From the NCBI GenBank assembly GCA_002726205.1, contig PBSL01000038.1, forward strand, positions 1-38,324: a DNA stretch of 38,324 nt, given 5' to 3'. A model generated the notes under the pieces. The model had not been told where the DNA came from, did not search any database, and saw only the letters and a list, made by a program, of their open reading frames with translations. Source of the stretch: Planctomycetaceae bacterium. GTDB lineage: Bacteria; Planctomycetota; Planctomycetia; Planctomycetales; Planctomycetaceae. Position numbers and translations under genes: made by a program. Positions within the stretch are counted from its first letter, which is position 1, and each line of letters begins with the position of its first letter. This document shows, piece after piece, positions 6,942 to 18,418 of the stretch.

Positions 6942-7877
6942 ATGACCCCACGACCTGCCGATGGCCCGTTGGATTGTCACCCGGCCGATGCCGCCGAGCG
7001 GGAGGCCGCGTTTGGGAATGTCCACGAGGTGTGGGGCGGGGGGCTACCGATCGAAGAATACCTGGCGTGGCGATTGAATTCGGCAACCCACGCACGAGCC
7101 TGCTGGTATGTCGGTTGCCGGGAAGGTCGGGTCGTGACGTCACTGGGAGCCTATCCGATTGCGGTGCAGGCCAACGGGGCCAGGTTCGAAGGGTACTCCA
7201 TCGGAGCGGTTCACACCGTTCCCGATTCGCGGCGGCGCGGATATGCGGCCCAGTTGATGGCCTGGGTCGAGAAGCACCAGGCGCGGCAGGGAGCAAAGAT
7301 CGGGTTGCTCTACTCCGACATCGAACCGTCGTACTACGCCCGGATGGGGTATCGGTTGTGCGAGTCCTACGAGGGATGGATCACACCGGAGGCCGTCTCG
7401 TCAGCGGGCGGCCCGCTGGTGAGGTTCTCGCCCGGCGAGCAACTCGAGCAACTCGCCGAGCTTTACCGCCGCGGCCAGTTGCAACGCCGGATCTGGATTG
7501 AACGCGATCGAGCCTACTGGGACTGGATCTGTCACCGGTACCCGAAGCACGAGTGGTACTGGTGGATGAAAGACGGCCAGGCGGGAGGCTACGTGCAGGT
7601 GGCGGCGTCAGACCCGGAAATCCGGCTCGTCGATTGGGGGTTGGAAAGTGATGCCGATGAAGCCGCCTTCTGGGATTCGATCATCAACTGGGCCAACGGG
7701 CGGGGCGTGGCCCGTGTCGGTGGTTGGTTGTCACAGACCGAGGTGACCCAGGCGCGGTTCGAGATCCAACCGCGCATCCGGGAACTGACGATGATCAAAC
7801 CACTTACCGACGAAAACGTCTGGGACGAGGAATTCGTCGGCGACGCGGCCTGGTTTCTGGAATGTGACCACGTCTGA
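6942..7877 (+). CDS. GNAT family N-acetyltransferase
   Basis: A 311-residue protein. The N-terminal half carries the GNAT acetyl-CoA signature: a beta strand GYSIGAVHTVPDSRRRGYAAQLM, with RRRGYA as the pyrophosphate-binding loop, followed by GLLYSDIEPSYYARMGYRL, which is typical of enzymes related to Eis-type acetyltransferases (the YARMGY end of the fold). The second half (about residues 150-311) appears to be a further domain rich in Trp and acidic residues. The acceptor substrate is unknown. The start ATG 6942 is the first in frame and no strong ribosome-binding site is seen. The gene is divergent from the M20 peptidase and convergent with the coiled-coil gene, whose stop is 10 bases away. 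No operon partner is visible. Confidence 0.85.
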   Translation: MTPRPADGPLDCHPADAAEREAAFGNVHEVWGGGLPIEEYLAWRLNSATHARACWYVGCREGRVVTSLGAYPIAVQANGARFEGYSIGAVHTVPDSRRRGYAAQLMAWVEKHQARQGAKIGLLYSDIEPSYYARMGYRLCESYEGWITPEAVSSAGGPLVRFSPGEQLEQLAELYRRGQLQRRIWIERDRAYWDWICHRYPKHEWYWWMKDGQAGGYVQVAASDPEIRLVDWGLESDADEAAFWDSIINWANGRGVARVGGWLSQTEVTQARFEIQPRIRELTMIKPLTDENVWDEEFVGDAAWFLECDHV

Positions 7878-7887
7878 ACTCGACTCT

Positions 7888-8301
7888 CTACTTCTTTAAC
7901 AATCGGAACCGGCCACTCTTCTTATCGCGACCGATGGCCGTCGAGTTATAGACACACTGGTAGACGACGTTCTTAAAGTTCTTGGCCTTGGTCTTGTAGC
8001 CCGATTCAGAGACCTTCGAGACCAGCTCTTCGAGTGTATGGCCAGCCGAGTGTGCCTCGAGAATTTTATTGACGACCACGGCGAGCGACTGGACATTTTT
8101 TGGCCGTTTTCGGCGGATTCTCTGACGACGGGGGCTTGGCGAAGCGGGGCCCTGGAGTGAGGACAGTTCTTGTTCGACAGCATTAAGTTCAGTCTGTAAC
8201 GACGTCTTCTTGTTTGCCAGCTGTGTTACGCGATCTCTCTTGGTCGCCAATAGTTTCTCTAACTCGACGACAGAAAAATCAGCAAGTTTCTGCTTTGCCA
8301 T
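7888..8301 (-). CDS. Small coiled-coil protein with C-terminal winged-helix-like domain
   Basis: A 137-residue protein. Residues 8-50 (LEKLLATKRDRVTQLANKK onward) have a heptad pattern and should form a coiled coil. Residues 55-70 are very basic (SPRRQRIRRKRPKN). Residues 75-135 (TLEELVSKVSESGYKTKAK, then FKNVVYQCVYN and GRFRLLKK) resemble the HARE-HTH/winged-helix pattern, suggesting DNA binding; this is inference from pattern. The frame extends upstream to 8382, but ATG 8301 is preceded by AGAAAGGAAAACC, a good ribosome-binding site, which fixes the start. A well-formed promoter lies about 50 bases upstream. Lys-rich composition and lower GC differ from the neighbours. It is the only minus-strand gene between two plus-strand genes and looks like a separately expressed nucleoid-type or regulatory protein. 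Confidence 0.82.
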   Translation of the reverse strand: MAKQKLADFSVVELEKLLATKRDRVTQLANKKTSLQTELNAVEQELSSLQGPASPSPRRQRIRRKRPKNVQSLAVVVNKILEAHSAGHTLEELVSKVSESGYKTKAKNFKNVVYQCVYNSTAIGRDKKSGRFRLLKK

Positions 8302-9827: not shown

Positions 9828-9946
9828 GCTGGTTGGCGGGTCTTGACGGGTTTCCGAGGGTGCGGGATACTCCACCCCTACGGTGGCGAACGGCCGGGTC
9901 CGAGTCGTCGTAACAGGTGAAACCGGAGCTCCTGCGGTCGGAATCG

Positions 9947-11209
9947 ATGGACGATCTGAAACAGTACGCTCTGACGCTGGCCACCCAGGCCCGCCAGGCC
10001 TCACGCCGGCTCGGCGGGATCGACGGTGGGCAGCGCAATACCTGGCTGGCACGGACTGCGGAGTTGCTGGTCGAGAACGGCTCGGTCTTGACCGAGGCCA
10101 ACGAACGGGATCTCGTGGTGGCCTCCGAGAACGGATTGAGCGGTGCAGCTATCGATCGGCTGCGGCTGACCAGTGATCGATTGGCGGCGATGGTGACGGC
10201 CTTGCAGGAGATCGCGGCGTTGCCTGATCCGGTCGGCGAGGTCATCGAATCCAATGTTCGGCCCAACGGCCTGTTGGTCACGAGGGTACGTGTGCCGCTG
10301 GGCGTGGTCTTTTTCATCTTCGAGTCACGCCCGAACGTGACGATTGATGCGGCTGCCCTGTGCGTGAAAAGCGGCAACGCGGTCATCCTGAGGGGCGGCA
10401 AAGAAGCCATCCACAGCAATCGGGCGTTGTACGAAATTCTGGTCGAGGCCGCCCGAGAGTGTGGTTTGCCGTCCGGGGCGGTGCAGCTGGTCGATACGGT
10501 TGATCGCGCCGCCGTCGGCGAGTTCCTGGCGCTGGGATCACTGATCGATGTCACGATTCCGCGGGGCGGAAAATCGTTGATCGAGCGGGTTGCCGCGGAT
10601 GCGACGATGCCGATCATCAAGCACTTCGACGGGATCTGTCACGTCTTCGTCGATCGTGCGGCAGATCTCGAAATGGCCAGGCGGATTGTCGTCGACAGCA
10701 AGTGCCAGCGACCGGGAGTCTGTAACGCGGCAGAGACCCTGCTGGTGGATCGGGAAGTTGCCGAGACGTTTCTTCCCGAGATCGCCGGTTCGCTCGAGGC
10801 GGAGGGGGTACTCCTGAAGGGATGTCCCGAGACGTGCCGACTGGTTCCCAGCGCCGAAGAGGCCCGGGAAGTTGATTTTCGCACCGAATATCTCGACCTG
10901 GTGATTTCGGTCCGCGTCGTCGACGACGTGGCTGCGGCGATCGACCACATCGACGAATTCGGTTCCGGACACACCGAGGCAATTGTCACCGCGGATCTGG
11001 AGACATCCCGGCGATTTTGCCGGGATGTTGATTCATCGGCTGTGATGGTCAATGCCAGCACGCGATTCAACGACGGTGGTGAATTCGGTCTTGGTGCCGA
11101 AATCGGTATTAGCACCGATAAGTTTCATGCTCGTGGTCCCTGCGGGCTGCGAGAACTGACCTGTTACAAGTACGTGGTCCACGGTGCCGGACAGCTGAAG
11201 TCGGGCTGA
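9947..11209 (+). CDS. proA: Gamma-glutamyl phosphate reductase
   Basis: Reduces gamma-glutamyl phosphate to glutamate semialdehyde with NADPH, the second step of proline synthesis; cytosolic. The protein of 420 residues from ATG 9947 (MDDLKQYAL) has the usual length; the frame could begin at 9917 but those ten residues are not family-like. Visible motifs are [43 protein letters not shown], the catalytic Cys259 in [13 protein letters not shown], and the C-terminal [19 protein letters not shown] with GPCGLRELT, all typical of ProA. proB is not adjacent. The next gene (FliM-like) begins 45 bases after the stop on the same strand but has no obvious link. Confidence 0.96.
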
Positions 11210-11254: not shown

Positions 11255-12211
11255 ATGGCGTTCGTGTTGAGCCGGACCGAGGTCGAGGCATTGTTGGCTG
11301 GTCGGGTGGACCGGAACTTGGACCGGGTTGACGATCCGCGGAGATCGGCGACGGAGCAAGCGAGTGCAGCGTCTCCGGAATGGCCGTTGACGACTCTGCA
11401 GCGACTCGAATCGCGTCTGAAGGCTGCCGCGAGTGAGCTGACCACCGTGATCGGCGAACGATTGGCCGCTGCGTCGGATGGACCGATCGAGGTGGAATAC
11501 CTGGGAGTGGCACCGGGGGCACGATTGCCGCAGGACTCTGGAGAAGTCGGAACGTGGGTCTTGCAGGGGGTGCGACGACGCGATTCCGGTCGGATTGCGA
11601 TTGACCAGCCCCTGGCCGTGGGATTGATCGATGCGCTGCTCGGCGGGACCGCGGCCGCTTCCGCTACGTCCGCCGACCGGCAACTGACCGGTCTGGAATG
11701 GTCGTTGCTGACCCGCGCGGTGGAATTCGTGGCTGCGGTGTTGATGCCCAGCGGAAACGGAGAAGACCCGGCGGTGCTGGAAACCGCCAGGGAATCGATC
11801 AACGTACACGGTGAGACTGTCCTGGCTACGACGACCGGTCCACCGGTTCGAACCGTGTTGGCCGGATACCAGTGGAAACTTCCGGACTGCCGGGGGCTTG
11901 TCCATTTCGAACTCTCGGCCGGCCTGGTCGAACGACTTACCGAGCCGATGGGTTCGAACGATTCGGTGTTGGACGAGGCGACCCTGTCTCAAACGAGTAC
12001 TCTCGTGGCACGATTACCGACGTGTGGGCTGGCCACCTCCGACCTCGGTGAACTCTGTGTCGGTGACGTGATCGTAACCGGTCAGCCCGTCGCCGACGGT
12101 CCCGGTTCGGAATGGGAGGTGCTCGTTGACGGGAAACCGCGGTTTGCGGGGGAACCGGGGTCGATTGATGGTCGCCGTGCGGTCGTACTAAGCCAGCCGG
12201 ATGGGGTGTGA
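11255..12211 (+). CDS. FliM-like protein (SpoA/flagellar motor switch family)
   Basis: A 318-residue protein close to FliM in length. The N-terminus FVLSRTEVEALLAG (residues 3-16) matches the FliM form LSQDEIDALL, which in FliM binds CheY-phosphate. The middle part (residues 45-230) fits a CheC-like fold, with LIDALLGGT where FliM often has a Gly-Gly turn. The C-terminal region (about 245-315) fits a SpoA domain: LGELCVGDVIVTGQPVADG, then VLVDGKPRFAGEPGSIDGR. No other flagellar or chemotaxis gene lies in the window; proA precedes it and infC follows. In FliM the protein forms the C-ring of the flagellar motor; here an alternative secretion or switch role is possible. The family assignment comes from motifs and length and is fairly good; the function is not settled. 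Confidence 0.72.
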   Translation: MAFVLSRTEVEALLAGRVDRNLDRVDDPRRSATEQASAASPEWPLTTLQRLESRLKAAASELTTVIGERLAAASDGPIEVEYLGVAPGARLPQDSGEVGTWVLQGVRRRDSGRIAIDQPLAVGLIDALLGGTAAASATSADRQLTGLEWSLLTRAVEFVAAVLMPSGNGEDPAVLETARESINVHGETVLATTTGPPVRTVLAGYQWKLPDCRGLVHFELSAGLVERLTEPMGSNDSVLDEATLSQTSTLVARLPTCGLATSDLGELCVGDVIVTGQPVADGPGSEWEVLVDGKPRFAGEPGSIDGRRAVVLSQPDGV

Positions 12212-12303: not shown

Positions 12304-12843
12304 TTGCGCCGAAGAGGATTACCACCGGTTGCCGCGGAACAGATGCACCGGATCAATGAACAGATCCGGATCACACCTATTCGCGTGGTTGATCAGGAAG
12401 GCAACGTGGTCGGCATTCTTCCACGGGAAGAGGGGCTGCAGATTGCCCTCGAGGCCGGCCTGGACCTGGTCGAGGTCAGTCCGAATGATCGCCCACCGGT
12501 CTGCCGGGTCATGGACTACGGGAAGTTCAAGTACGATTTAAAGAAGCGGAAAACGAAGGGGACCAAGCAGCACGTCGTGCAGGTCAAGGAAATTCGGCTG
12601 AGGCCGAAGACTGGTGAGCACGACATCGATTTCAAGATCAAGCGGGCACGTCGGTTCCTGGAGAACCGGGACAAGGTGAAGATCAACGTGATTTTCCGTG
12701 GTCGCGAGAATGCTCACCGGGACCGTGGCCATGAGATGCTGGAGGAGATTATCGAGATCCTCGAGGACATCGCCAAGGTCGAGAAACCTCCCGGGATGGA
12801 GGGGGGGCGGACCATGTCGACGGTCCTTGCTCCAAAAGGCTGA
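12304..12843 (+). CDS. infC: Translation initiation factor IF-3
   Basis: Binds the 30S subunit and checks start codon and initiator tRNA. The 179-residue protein has the N-domain ([46 protein letters not shown]), the linker and the C-domain ([33 protein letters not shown]). The start is taken as TTG 12304, with AGGGGGAG ending four bases before it; ATG 12343 (MHRINEQ) is the alternative. A rare start codon agrees with the known autoregulation of infC through non-canonical starts, although the usual one in other bacteria is ATT. It opens the conserved infC-rpmI-rplT-pheS cluster on the plus strand. Confidence 0.95.
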
Positions 12844-13285: not shown

Positions 13286-13639
13286 ATGCCGAGAGTACTC
13301 AAAGGAGCGGCCCGCCGCAGGGCCAAGAAGCGATTGTTCAGGGAGGCCCGTGGCAATCGTGGAGGCCGCGGCAAGTTGCTGCGGACAGTCAAGGAGACCG
13401 TGGTCCGGTCACGAGCGTACGCCTACCGTGACCGACGGGTCCGCAAACGAGATTTCCGCCGCCTCTGGATCACCCGTCTGACGGCCGCCTGCCGCCAGCG
13501 TGGTCTGCGGTACTCGGTTTTCATCAACCAGTTGTCCAATGCCGACGTCGAACTGAATCGGAAGACGTTGAGCGAGCTGGCGATTTCGTACCCGCAGGTC
13601 TTCGATGAAATCGTGGCCGCGGTCGAGTCGGCGGCCTAG
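13286..13639 (+). CDS. rplT: 50S ribosomal protein L20
   Basis: A 117-residue basic protein, the usual L20 length, with [18 protein letters not shown] at the N-terminus, [20 protein letters not shown] in the middle and [20 protein letters not shown] near the C-terminus, all typical. It assembles early into the 50S subunit and in several bacteria represses the infC-rpmI-rplT mRNA. The start ATG 13286 follows GAAGAGG at a short distance. pheS begins 14 bases downstream. Confidence 0.97.
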
Positions 13640-13653
13640 CGGTTGGTAGGACG

Positions 13654-14658
13654 ATGACGGCCGAACCACAGGCTGCCTTCGAAAGCTATCGCGACGAGGC
13701 ACTCGCGGCGATTGCGTCGGCCGGATCCGAGGCCGAGCTGGAGTCTGTTCGTATCGAGTTTCTCGGCAAGAAACAGGGCCGACTCAAGGATCTGCAGACG
13801 CTGCTCGGCAAGGCCGAACCTGCCGAGAAACCCCTGTTGGGCAAACAGTTCAACGAGGTGCGAACCGACGTTGAGGGAGCGTTGGAGGCTCGTCGAGGTG
13901 AACTGGTTCGTCCGATCGCGGCCGTGGCCGCCGTCGATGTCACGCTGCCGGGAACGCGTCCAGTGATCGGACGCCGTCATCCGCTGAGCAAGACCATGGA
14001 CGAGTTCAAGGACATCGTCGGTCGGTTCGGATTCAGTGTGGCGACTGGCCCGGAGCTCGAGGATGACCATCACAACTTCGTCGCGTTGAACATTCCGCCC
14101 GTCCATCCGGCGCGGGATCCGCTGGACAATTTCTACCTGGCGGTGGCAGGCAAGTCCGGCGAGAAGGTCCTGATGAGGAGCCAGACGTCAACGGTGCAGA
14201 TCCGTGTCATGGAACAGTCACAGCCTCCGGTCCGCATCGTCTCGCTTGGTCGCTGTTATCGTCCCGATACGATCGATTCGACGCACCACTGCATGTTCCA
14301 TCAGATGGAAGGACTGATGATCGACACCGATGTCACGATGGCCGACCTGAAGACCGTTCTGAAACTCTTCGCCACCGCCTTTCTGGGCGATGACGTTTCG
14401 ATCCGGTTTCGACCCAGTTTCTTTCCTTTCACCGAGCCGTCGGTCGAGGTGGATGTGTTGTGGCGTGATCGTTGGCTGGAACTCGGCGGTGCTGGCATGG
14501 TCGATCCCAACGTGCTCCGCCAGGTCGGTTACGATCCTGAGCAGGTCAGTGGGTTCGCGTTTGGCCTGGGGATCGAACGCTTCTGTATGATGCGTTACCA
14601 GATCACCGACATCCGTCGCTTCTTCGAAAACGACGTTCGTTTTCTCTCGCAGTTCTAG
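13654..14658 (+). CDS. pheS: Phenylalanyl-tRNA synthetase alpha subunit
   Basis: Catalytic subunit of the class II (alpha-beta)2 enzyme that charges tRNA-Phe. The 334-residue protein has the N-terminal coiled coil (residues 1-90), the [15 protein letters not shown] region (motif 1 area), motif 2 in [20 protein letters not shown], the Phe-pocket part [17 protein letters not shown], and motif 3 in [16 protein letters not shown]. The length is standard. pheT, which normally follows, is missing here: the convergent zinc-ribbon gene comes next and its stop overlaps this one (shared CTAG), so the beta subunit must be encoded elsewhere. Confidence 0.97.
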
Positions 14659-15022: not shown

Positions 15023-16246
15023 TCACTCGCTGGAGCGAGCCTCCAGGCAGAGTAGCCGGTGGAATGTTCTGATGTAGAGGCGGCCGGCGGCGACCGATGG
15101 TGTCGAGTGCGACGGGTCACCAAGCGGAACTTTGCCGAGGAGTTTGAAGACGGGACTGGCGGCGACAATCACAACCTCGCCGCGTTCGCTGACACCGTAG
15201 ATTTTTCCGTCGATGCAAACCGGGGAGCCGCTGTAGTTTCCGCCGACCCTCTTCGTCCACACCGTCTTGCCCGTTGCCAGTTCGACGCAGGAGAAAACTC
15301 CCTCGTCGTTCCACTCGTACAGGTGATCGCGGTAGGCGATGGGAGTTGTAACGTAAGGCAACTGACGTTCGCGTGTCCACCGGATCCGTCCTCGCGTGTC
15401 GACAGCCCGCTGCAGCACTCCGAAGCGGCCACCCTGTCCACAACTGGCGATCACCAGGCCTCCGGCGAACACGGGAGAGGCCACCGTGCGAAGTGGAAAT
15501 GCTTCGGTCGCCCAGTTCTGGCGACCGGTGTAAGGATCCAGGCTGCTGATGCCCGATTCTCCACTGACACAGATCAACTGTGGTGGCTGCTGTTTTTCGC
15601 GGATGATCAACGGCGTGGCGTAGGAGGTTCGGCCGCTCTTGAATTTCCTCAGCCGGCTCCAGACGGTCCGCCCGGTTTGGCGGTTTAGTGCCAGGACCGA
15701 ACTGGGGCCGTCCTGGTCGTTGGGGACGATCAGGAGGTCCTCGAAGATGATCGGGGAAGCGCCCAGGCCATGCTGGCTCTCGTAGGGGCCCAGCAGTCGT
15801 CGCCAGGCCAGGTTGCCATCGAAGTCGTAGGCGGACATCGCGTAGCGTTCCTTGTCGGCGAAGCCAACATAGACACGCGTACCGTCGGTACACGGCGTGC
15901 TCGAGGCCCAGCTGTTGCGCAGGTGCTTGCGGCTCTGGTTCATCCCGAGTGGTCGTGACCAGTGAATCTCGCCGCTGTCGGCGTTCAGGCAGAACAGGTA
16001 GCGGATCGCACCCTTGTTGACCGCCGACGTGATGAACAGCTTCTGGCCATGAATTACCGCCGCGCCGTGTCCTTCGCCGGGCAATCGAACGTTGAAGTTG
16101 TAGTCGCCGGGGCTCCAGGTCGTGGGAATCCCCTTCAGCGGGCTGACTCCGGTTCCATTGAAGCCGCGAAAACGGGTCCAGTTTTCGGCCTGCGCGGGGG
16201 CATGGATCAGGGAAATCAGCAGGAGGGCAATCAGGCAGCGAGACAT
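15023..16246 (-). CDS. Secreted PQQ-like beta-propeller protein
   Basis: A 407-residue protein with a clear signal peptide ([20 protein letters not shown], cut before ENW). The mature part begins with [14 protein letters not shown] and contains repeated blades of the PQQ-like type: [45 protein letters not shown] and [15 protein letters not shown], followed by [20 protein letters not shown]. No haem-binding CxxCH or dehydrogenase active site is evident, so it is unlikely to be a quinoprotein dehydrogenase; such propellers in planctomycetes are of unknown function and may be binding scaffolds. It is divergent from the sigma-54 activator and resembles the second propeller at 19291-20568. Confidence 0.88.
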
Positions 16247-16316
16247 GAGAAGAGTCGCTCCGAGTGGAAGGAAACGGGAATCGACCTAGGATGCCGGATG
16301 TCCGTCAACGTTGCAA

Positions 16317-16346
16317 GACCGTCCCTTGCGGCTGCTTTTGACGGTC
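16317..16346. promoter_or_regulatory. Inverted repeat between the PQQ-like gene and the sigma-54 activator
   Basis: GACCGTC (16317-16323) and GACGGTC (16340-16346) form a perfect 7-bp inverted repeat with 16 bases between, in the 162-base divergent region. A second pair GGTCC/GGACC follows just after. It could be an operator serving both genes, or chance in GC-rich sequence. Confidence 0.28.
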
Positions 16347-16408
16347 CGGTATCCTCGAGGGGACCGATCGGAGACAATCGAGGCCGATCGGAAGGGGATG
16401 CGATCGCC

Positions 16409-18418
16409 ATGACAAGTCAAGCAGAAACCGGGACGTCCTATCTCGTCGTCCGAGACGGAAATCAGTGGCGGGACGTGTATCGCTTGATGCCCGGCCAGGT
16501 GACGACTATCGGGCGATCGTCTACCAACCGGGTTGTCCTCCGCGACGAAATCTGCAGCCGAAACCACTGCGAGGTTTTTCAGAGTGGTGATCGATGGGTG
16601 CTTCGTGACTTGAACAGCCGTAACGGCACGCTGGTCAATGGCCTGACACTGGATGAAGACTGGCCTCTCGAGGAGGGACAGATCATTCAGATCGGAGGTT
16701 GTAACCTGGGGTTTACCTCCGACCTCCTGCATGCCTTTCCCGAGTCCTCGCCCGACACGGCTGAGAGCATCTCCGACACCGCCGAAATGGTCGTGTTCGA
16801 TGACCCCGGACCCGAGTCGGAACCGGAAATTGTCCATCGGCAACGTGAGAACCGGTTCCGCGACGGCTCGGTCGAGCCGAGTGATGCACCGGATCGGATG
16901 CGACAGGATCTGACGTCTTTGTATCGACTGACATTGGAGATGGGCGCCGCCCGCGACGCCGATCAACTTGCTGAAGTCGTTCTCGATGGCCTGTTCGGCG
17001 GAACGCGAGCCGACATCGGTGCGGTGTTGCTCTTGCCCAAGGGCCTGCGGAATCGGCCACAATCCGACCAGTTGCGCGTGGCCGCTTATCGCTCGCTCAA
17101 GGATCTGCCCTACCAGAGAGTCTCTGACTATCTCTCCGGGACCGTGCTTGCCGAAGCCGAAGCGGTGCTGGCCCGGGATGTTGGCGACGACAGCAAGTTG
17201 GTTGACCGCGACAGTCTCGGCCAGATCCATGCACAAAGCGTGATCTGTGCGCCGTTGCGTGTCGAGGAGATCATCTACGGAGTGATCCACCTGTATTCCA
17301 CCGACCGGGAGAACCTGCTTGAACCCAACGATCTTGAGTTCGCGCTGGCACTGGCCGACCAGATGGCTGTGGCCCTGGATGGCCTGCAGGACCGTGAATC
17401 CCTGGCCAACGGACTGGCGCGAATGCAGGGTGAGAATGAATCACTCCGAGATCAACTGGCGATCGACAGCGAGTTGATTGGTGACAGCGAGGCGATGAAG
17501 GGACTTCGGCAGATCATCGACCGGATTGCATCGACCGATGCGACGGTTCTGGTTCGCGGTGAGAGTGGTGTTGGCAAGGAGCTTGTTGCCCGCGCGATCC
17601 ATTTTCGCAGCCGCCGTAGCCAGGGACCGTTCGTTTGCATGAACTGTGCAGCGTTGTCGGAGTCATTGCTCGAGAGTGAGTTGTTCGGGCATGAAAAGGG
17701 AGCTTTTACCGGTGCCGCCGATCGCAGACCGGGCAAGTTCGAGCAGGCCGATGGCGGTACGCTGTTCCTCGATGAGGTCGGCGAAATGCCGTCGGCGATT
17801 CAAGCCAAATTCCTCAGAGCCCTGGAAGGGCATCCGTTTGAACGGGTCGGTGGCCGTACGACCGTTGACGTGAATGTCCGTGTTGTCGCCGCGACCAACC
17901 GCAACCTCGAGGAAGCCGTCGCCGAGGGCACGTTCCGCAAGGACCTGTATTTTCGTCTGTTCGTCGTCGAGATCCAGGTGGCTCCACTCCGCGAGCACCC
18001 CGATGATATCCCGCAACTGGCGAACCTCTTCTGCGAACAATTCACCAGGAAGACAGATCGTGACGTTGGCGGGTTCACGCCCGAGGGTCTGTCTGCCCTG
18101 CAGGCATATGATTGGCCTGGAAATGTCCGTGAACTGAAGAACACGGTGGAACGGACAGTGATTCTGTGCACCGGCGAGAAGATCACCGGTGCCGACATTC
18201 AACTCTCGGCGCTGGTCTCTACCGACGACGGGGCCGATGGGCCCGCCGATCATCCGATTGCCGGGCGGCAGGTGTCTCTGGAGGTACTCGAACAACAACA
18301 CATTCTCGCGGTGCTCGAATCAACCGAATGGAACAAGTCACAGGCGTCTCGGATTCTCGGCATCGAGCGATCGACACTCGACCGGAAACTGAAGCGTTAT
18401 CGTGTCAGTCGCCCCTGA
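16409..18418 (+). CDS. Sigma-54-dependent activator with FHA, GAF, AAA+ and Fis-type HTH domains
   Basis: A 669-residue transcription activator. Domains in order: FHA (residues 10-105, with [21 protein letters not shown] and [14 protein letters not shown]), GAF (about 155-325), AAA+ sigma-54 interaction domain with Walker A GESGVGKE (384-391), the loop GAFTGA (431-436) that contacts sigma-54, Walker [13 protein letters not shown], and an HTH at the C-terminus ([21 protein letters not shown]). All ATPase motifs are intact. The FHA domain binds phosphothreonine, so input probably comes from a Ser/Thr kinase rather than a response-regulator receiver, which is absent. The frame is open back to 15962 inside the opposite gene; ATG 16409, with AAGGGG about 11 bases before it, fits the FHA start. 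It is divergent from the PQQ-like gene. Confidence 0.93.

Follow-up and report, generated by a model that had tools for sequence, protein, structure and literature searches.

The window analyzed here, a contig of 38,324 nucleotides (C39) from a Planctomycetaceae bacterium, carries between proA and infC an ORF that, based on the ORF list and its translation, starts with ATG, has no internal stop codons and encodes a protein with the N-terminus MAFVLSRTEVEALL (Table 1). As a preliminary description of this DNA had noted, the protein has the motif LSRTEVEALL close to its N-terminus, which in FliM is the CheY-binding peptide, and a C-terminal SpoA domain (Pfam FliMN_C/SpoA, 32.4 bits versus a cut-off of 23.8, residues 249-313). 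The GG at residues 130-131, which lies in the FliG-binding region, is retained, and G130 is invariant in 43/43 rows of alignment A1, which comprises 43 proA-linked FliMs. The preliminary description had named the lack of any FliM or SpoA profile match as evidence against its claim; the SpoA match lies above its cut-off and speaks for the claim, whereas the FliM models stay below theirs (Pfam PF02154, 13.5 bits versus 27; NCBIfam TIGR01397, 34.6 bits and, thus, far below 219.6). Conserved FliM blocks are changed in the protein. Neither the SctQ model nor the CheC, CheX and FliY families match it at E-values up to 1. Alignment A1 was also the input to an AF2 model (mean pLDDT 75.2) and to a profile search of the PDB. 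In Foldseek searches with the AF2 model, FliM chains rank first, with FliM of the Salmonella C-ring as the best match (E 1.8e-11) and TM-scores by target length of up to 0.77 for FliM middle domains, while T. maritima FliY, CheC and CheX rank after FliM with a weaker fold match; the whole-chain rmsd is >20, arguing that separate domains are matched and not their arrangement. The PDB profile search returned only FliM, FliN and FliY, together with one chain named "chemotaxis protein" (1yab), and no SctQ. Altogether, the window protein is FliM-like and strongly diverged.

Table 1. Features of the proA-fliM-infC region in the window
Feature	Position	Strand	Basis
fliM ortholog, strongly diverged	11255..12211	+	318-aa ORF, SpoA profile, FliM fold, proA linkage
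N-terminal motif LSRTEVEALL, residues 5-14	11267..11296	+	translation; VLSRTEVEALL 11/11 identical in L071
Middle domain, FliM/CheC-like fold, ~residues 45-229	11387..11941	+	AF2 model and Foldseek
SpoA (FliMN_C) domain	11999..12193	+	profile search
proA, conserved upstream neighbor	9917..11209	+	gap to fliM 45 bp; ORF list, comparison of loci
infC, downstream neighbor	12304..12843	+	named from the preliminary finding and homology between loci
rplT, downstream neighbor	13286..13639	+	name by eye
pheS, downstream neighbor	13654..14658	+	name by eye

It had been suggested that this could be a displaced flagellar gene, with no flagellar gene nearby. The surroundings are as described: among the families searched (SpoA, FliM, Flg_bbr_C, FlhA, FliG_C, flagellin, MotB_plug and CheW), SpoA alone matches C39, and it does so within fliM. 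Displacement is ruled out by the conserved linkage to proA. In 16 of 17 stretches from relatives (sets of 13 and 4), proA lies directly 5' of the FliM-like gene, the exception being G029, in which there is no proA in the 7.8 kb upstream; infC, rplT and pheS follow the FliM-like gene in several of these stretches. In a second sample of 80 ProA loci, 71 of which have at least 1 kb of sequence after proA, a FliM match begins within 600 bp after proA in 52/71 loci, 51 of them on the same strand, with a median gap of 61 bp. In the closest locus, L071 from Planctomycetaceae RS383, the gene order is the same and FliM has 315 aa; this FliM scores 230.6 bits against the window protein but 43.5 bits against the canonical FliM profile. 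More generally, the best protein matches of the window protein in relatives are their FliMs. Because the proA-fliM linkage is conserved, FliM is at its ancestral place, and we conclude from position and best protein matches that the gene is a vertically inherited fliM ortholog at an ancestral proA-fliM-infC locus. In L147, the FliM-like gene (7272-8132, minus strand) lies right behind proA on the opposite strand. A scan for promoters and terminators gave nothing useful. Further downstream in the window, an 818-aa ORF (15962-18418, plus strand) reads by eye as an FHA, GAF and sigma54-activator protein.

The protein is under constraint. It is identical to the FliM of L071 at 146/307 residues, with dN at 0.50 and dS at 1.55; as dS is near saturation, the resulting dN/dS of ~0.32 is rough. 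Codon changes between the two genes are least frequent at position 2 (0.30) and most frequent at position 3 (0.61), and the N-terminal VLSRTEVEALL is identical at all 11 residues.

The genome to which the window belongs (G000; 76 contigs, 96.04% complete) has two SpoA genes at E-values up to 0.001, fliM on C39 and a gene for a 90-aa FliN on C47, and the window fliM is the only FliM-like gene detected. C47 carries, in this order, genes for a FliF-FliG fusion, FliH, FliI, FliJ (a weak match, E 0.056), FliN, FliO, FliP, FliQ, FliR and FlhB, and the ORFs are intact throughout this set. The fusion (L027:10078-11793) is one 571-aa ORF with YscJ/FliF, FliG_M and FliG_C matches, while FliF_C and FliG_N have no match in it. 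FlhA sits on C2 and matches its Pfam model as two pieces with a gap. All seven proteins that match both types of models score higher with the flagellar than with the injectisome models; nevertheless, none of these seven export and C-ring proteins reaches the curated cut-off of its flagellar equivalog model. Profile searches with Flg_bbr_C (rod/hook), Flagellin_N, MotB_plug and CheW gave no match in G000. The genome is unusual in having a flagellar-type export set without detected hook, filament or MotB genes. The search for fliG, fliN and a second FliM that had been proposed as a check recovered the first as part of a fusion, the second as such and the third not at all. The alternative idea, that a C-ring protein of a switch or secretion system has taken on another task here, agrees with the gene content, i.e., C-ring and export genes without flagellin, Flg_bbr_C, MotB or CheW matches. 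As for the contrary case, in which the gene would be the one ordinary FliM among a full complement of flagellar genes, it is indeed the sole FliM detected; however, this FliM is not normal and the set is not complete.

The same reduced pattern is found among relatives. In a set of 59 genomes (G000 and 58 relatives), 17 have no flagellin match, and the same 17 also have no Flg_bbr_C and MotB_plug match; most of them are >90% complete. FlhA is kept in 16 of the 17 (all except G053), FliG_C matches are present in 13 and SpoA matches in 11; among the six genomes without any SpoA match, five retain FlhA. In most flagellated relatives, Flg_bbr_C matches five places. In G002 (87% complete), MotB alone is missing among flagellin, Flg_bbr_C and MotB. 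G009 (79% complete) has four flagellin matches, three of them on one contig, and no Flg_bbr_C or MotB match, a pattern that may reflect either an incomplete assembly or a foreign contig. Two adjacent SpoA genes are present in L053, L054, L055 and L057 (G028, G038, G004 and G014) and others, where flagellin is present and PF02154 is weak or absent; such pairs are perhaps a second, different flagellar system. Many flagellated relatives also have a third SpoA gene of ~290 aa, as in L051 and L052 (G017:C1:1189029-1189238 and G001:C1:2489024-2489233).

Six flagellin-less relatives, G003, G006, G029, G033, G036 and G054, share two gene groups near FlhA. In G029, one of them is FlhF (220 bits, cut-off 174), and the other, a group of sigma factors, is FliA/WhiG (258.6 bits, cut-off 189.6). 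It looks as though placement and sigma28 control persisted in these relatives after the filament had gone. C2 ends 402 bases past FlhA, and therefore, this neighborhood is not visible in G000. L059:8904-14813 and like stretches in L047, L061, L063, L065 and L068 have FlhF-like, sigma28-like and, in four, FlhG-like genes beside FlhA. We also considered whether flagellin-less relatives have a novel partner gene close to their flagellar genes. Of the gene groups shared by at least three genomes, those tested turned out to be FlhF, an FlhG-like ATPase and FliA; one family of 400-510 aa and another of 275-1214 aa are among the others.

The N-terminal motif does not track chemotaxis. Among the 22 loci looked at, it is kept in 6/6 flagellated relatives without a CheW match, arguing that its retention is independent of CheW; conversely, 12/17 flagellin-less genomes have CheW matches, so that a lack of CheW characterizes G000 and four further genomes and not the group. 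The pattern search used for the 22 loci misses clear cases such as LSQSEVETLL, and its blanks are not counted as absences. In the hook-less L123, L124, L139, L144 and L147, the motif was not seen.

FlhB and FliG differ between flagellated and flagellin-less genomes. Where FlhB was found, the NPTx motif is absent in 7/7 flagellin-less and present in 8/8 flagellated genomes; these represent 7 of 12 flagellin-less genomes searched (not found in G006, G026, G033, G036 and G055) and 8 of 12 flagellated genomes with stretches examined (not found in G001, G023, G024 and G032). In G000, G029, G052 and G054, FlhB stops before the NPTx/autocleavage domain. A frameshift as the cause of the short FlhB was rejected, as an iterated FlhB search of the C47 stretch recovered no further ORF of 60 aa or longer and FlhB ends at a similar point in the three other genomes. 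The HPQ motif of FliG, which contacts FliM, is kept in G000 (as DHPQ), G006, G029, G033 and G054, each of which has a FliM-like gene. In G036, a genome with no SpoA match, the motif is lost. The only FliG of G050, G052 and G055 is short and lacks the middle domain; these genomes have 1, 1 and 0 SpoA matches, respectively. HPQ is also absent from the FliF-FliG fusion of G035, a genome with flagellin and two SpoA genes in tandem, and from a second FliG in G045. Natural FliF-FliG fusions are present in six of the genomes read, namely G000, G006, G029, G035, G036 and G054 (on stretches L027, L060, L062, L064, L067 and L166), and five of these genomes are without flagellin; G033 has separate genes. 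FliF and FliG are apparently fused in more than one family. For the torque-generating residues of FliG, G000 has V, R, D, A and R at the five positions aligned with E. coli FliG, while the flagellated G001 has R, E, E, K and R. In E. coli, R281, D288 and D289 are described as the primary and K264 and R297 as the secondary torque residues (PMC6079164). Thus, with HPQ kept and three of the five torque positions changed, the contact to FliM appears to be retained in G000 while torque residues are lost.

Across ProA loci, the class of FliM covaries with hook/rod genes. We used 50 of the 80 loci; those excluded mostly have little sequence after proA, and some have a canonical FliM. Among the 50, 34 have FliM beside proA and entered a Fisher test, while 16 have no FliM there, 9 of these with hook/rod genes. 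Canonical and divergent FliMs were separated at 400 bits with the canonical FliM profile, a cut chosen after the scores were seen and lying in a score gap from 327 to 414 bits. Flg_bbr_C genes accompany 19/20 canonical but only 3/14 divergent FliMs (p 1.3e-5); in other words, hook/rod genes are missing with 11/14 divergent and 1/20 canonical FliMs. The exceptions are L113, with a canonical FliM and no Flg_bbr_C, and L094, L097 and L127, with a divergent FliM and Flg_bbr_C. Because other relatives have a separate tandem SpoA pair, we speculate that the latter three may run a second flagellum. A ProA tree of 63 rows, a quick single-gene tree in which 23/60 inner branches have support under 80, groups the window with L071 (support 99); on this tree, the hook/rod state changes 16 times at fewest. 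Among six independent pairs on this tree, 4-5 agree with the association and none oppose it (p 0.06). The association is, therefore, strong as a count and, once relatedness is controlled, underpowered and suggestive. L075, L081, L090 and L074 are apparently G006, G009, G030 and G014, i.e., the genome and locus sets overlap.

Because the only FliM detected in the genome lies at its usual place by proA while hook, filament and motor-driving genes are undetected, it probably serves a stripped-down export machine and not swimming. Specifically, we suggest with moderate confidence that FliM belongs to a secretion apparatus derived from the flagellum, in which it would contribute to a C-ring or sorting platform that is static and has no stator. 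In such an apparatus, FliM, FliN and the FliF-FliG fusion would build a C-ring under the inner membrane, which may no longer rotate, given that a stator is undetected, most torque residues are changed and there is no filament. The static ring would dock FliH-FliI-FliJ and pass substrates to the FlhA/FlhB-FliPQR gate. By analogy, the FliM platform could work like SctQ in injectisomes and yet belong to the flagellar line. The analysis shows orthology by position, the gene content, co-variation among relatives and constraint on the protein, from which we propose that the machine would assemble and would secrete certain substrates. Several observations count against a platform. FliM and FliN are dispensable in the flagellin-less pattern; the FlhA match is in two pieces and all seven proteins compared are under their equivalog cut-offs, which decay would also give; the G000 assembly is in 76 contigs and 96% complete; and both the four exceptional loci and the p-value obtained with phylogeny controlled weaken the association.

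Slow decay is the main and a serious rival, although we consider it unlikely. In this scenario, the cells gave up swimming, and fliM and the export genes, which would have no function at present, drift toward loss. Strong divergence or shortening of FliM, FliG and FlhB fits decay, six of the 17 flagellin-less genomes have no SpoA match and one has no FlhA match, and cheap rotor remnants after filament loss have been proposed (PMC12199754). However, the ORFs are intact across the C47 set, the dN/dS relative to L071 argues for constraint even though dS is near saturation, the N-terminal motif is fully identical in L071, FlhA persists in nearly all flagellin-less genomes, and HPQ is retained where a FliM-like gene is retained. 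We regard as improbable a functional flagellum with axial and stator genes that escaped detection because of assembly gaps or divergence, FliM being an ordinary fast-evolving rotor part. The assembly is indeed in 76 contigs and 96% complete, and the PF02154 search missed even FliM itself, indicating that diverged proteins can escape; however, FlhB switch and torque residues are lost, and the joint absence of flagellin, Flg_bbr_C and MotB_plug recurs in 17/59 genomes, making an assembly gap an unlikely sole cause.

The two remaining explanations move FliM out of a flagellum-derived ring. That FliM has left the ring, with its N-terminal peptide and CheC-like domain signaling apart from any export machine, would fit the intact motif in a genome without a CheW match and the related CheC/CheX fold; nevertheless, it is very improbable, as HPQ is kept in five genomes with a FliM-like gene and lost in the SpoA-less G036, and no CheC, CheX or FliY family match was obtained. 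Even less credible is that the protein is of the SctQ type and belongs to the ring of a true injectisome. SctQ has the same domain logic with a C-terminal SpoA, and the relative G029 has a weak SctQ match (21.4 bits versus a cut-off of 100.8). An injectisome part was rejected, however: the window protein lacks a SctQ match, the A1 profile finds FliM, FliN, FliY and the one "chemotaxis protein" chain in the PDB, the locus is orthologous to that of canonical FliM, and flagellar models win for 7/7 proteins.

The closest known systems share some features with the window protein or its apparatus and differ in others. With FliM of the Salmonella C-ring (PDB 8wiw, 8umd), the window protein shares the fold, the N-terminal motif and the C-terminal SpoA, and its gene is in the orthologous position after proA; in contrast, it scores under the Pfam and NCBIfam FliM cut-offs with changed FliM blocks, and its genome is without detected filament, hook/rod or MotB genes. 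The likeness to SctQ/YscQ/SpaO would lie solely in the proposed role as a static, SpoA-containing cytoplasmic platform that docks an ATPase, whereas by profile these proteins are another family and the apparatus here is flagellar based on the seven proteins compared. In PDB 8z4d, FliF and FliG are likewise one chain; however, that chain has 945 residues and an aligned FliG N-domain, while the 571-aa fusion of G000 has FliF_C and FliG_N unmatched. A precedent for export is described for the non-flagellated Lysobacter enzymogenes OH11, which keeps flagellar export genes and exports a heterologous flagellin (PMC7277350). That species belongs to another phylum and its apparatus is described as linked to twitching. 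Buchnera is reported to have reduced flagellar basal bodies and no motility, with secretion proposed (PMC8109811, PMC3459982), but keeps basal-body structural proteins, while G000 has no Flg_bbr_C match. Abby and Rocha discuss loci that resemble flagellar ones in species that have no flagella, as well as the exaptation of such loci (PMC3459982), and FliO is reported in non-flagellated organisms (PMC12403147). Among the open-license papers searched, none addresses a reduced planctomycete flagellar apparatus in its title or the start of its abstract.

That rotor proteins occur where there is no filament is a recognized puzzle: according to a 2025 survey, 11% of its non-motile species have a rotor protein and no filament protein, and its authors raise an alternative function and ask what use half a motor is (PMC12199754). 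We tentatively speculate, as a possibility rather than an expectation, that planctomycetes repeatedly made the flagellum a filament-less and stator-less secretion machine, in which FliF and FliG tend to fuse, FlhB is without the specificity switch, FliG is without torque charges and FliM, reduced in size and in most cases located at proA, would be a static cargo platform with its "CheY" peptide binding another partner. Because many cases occur in one phylum, with at least 16 changes of the hook/rod state on the ProA tree, the contacts that survive the loss of rotation can be read. The planctomycete cases may thereby separate the part that the C-ring plays in export from the part it plays in the motor, and show how a flagellum could start becoming a secretion system.
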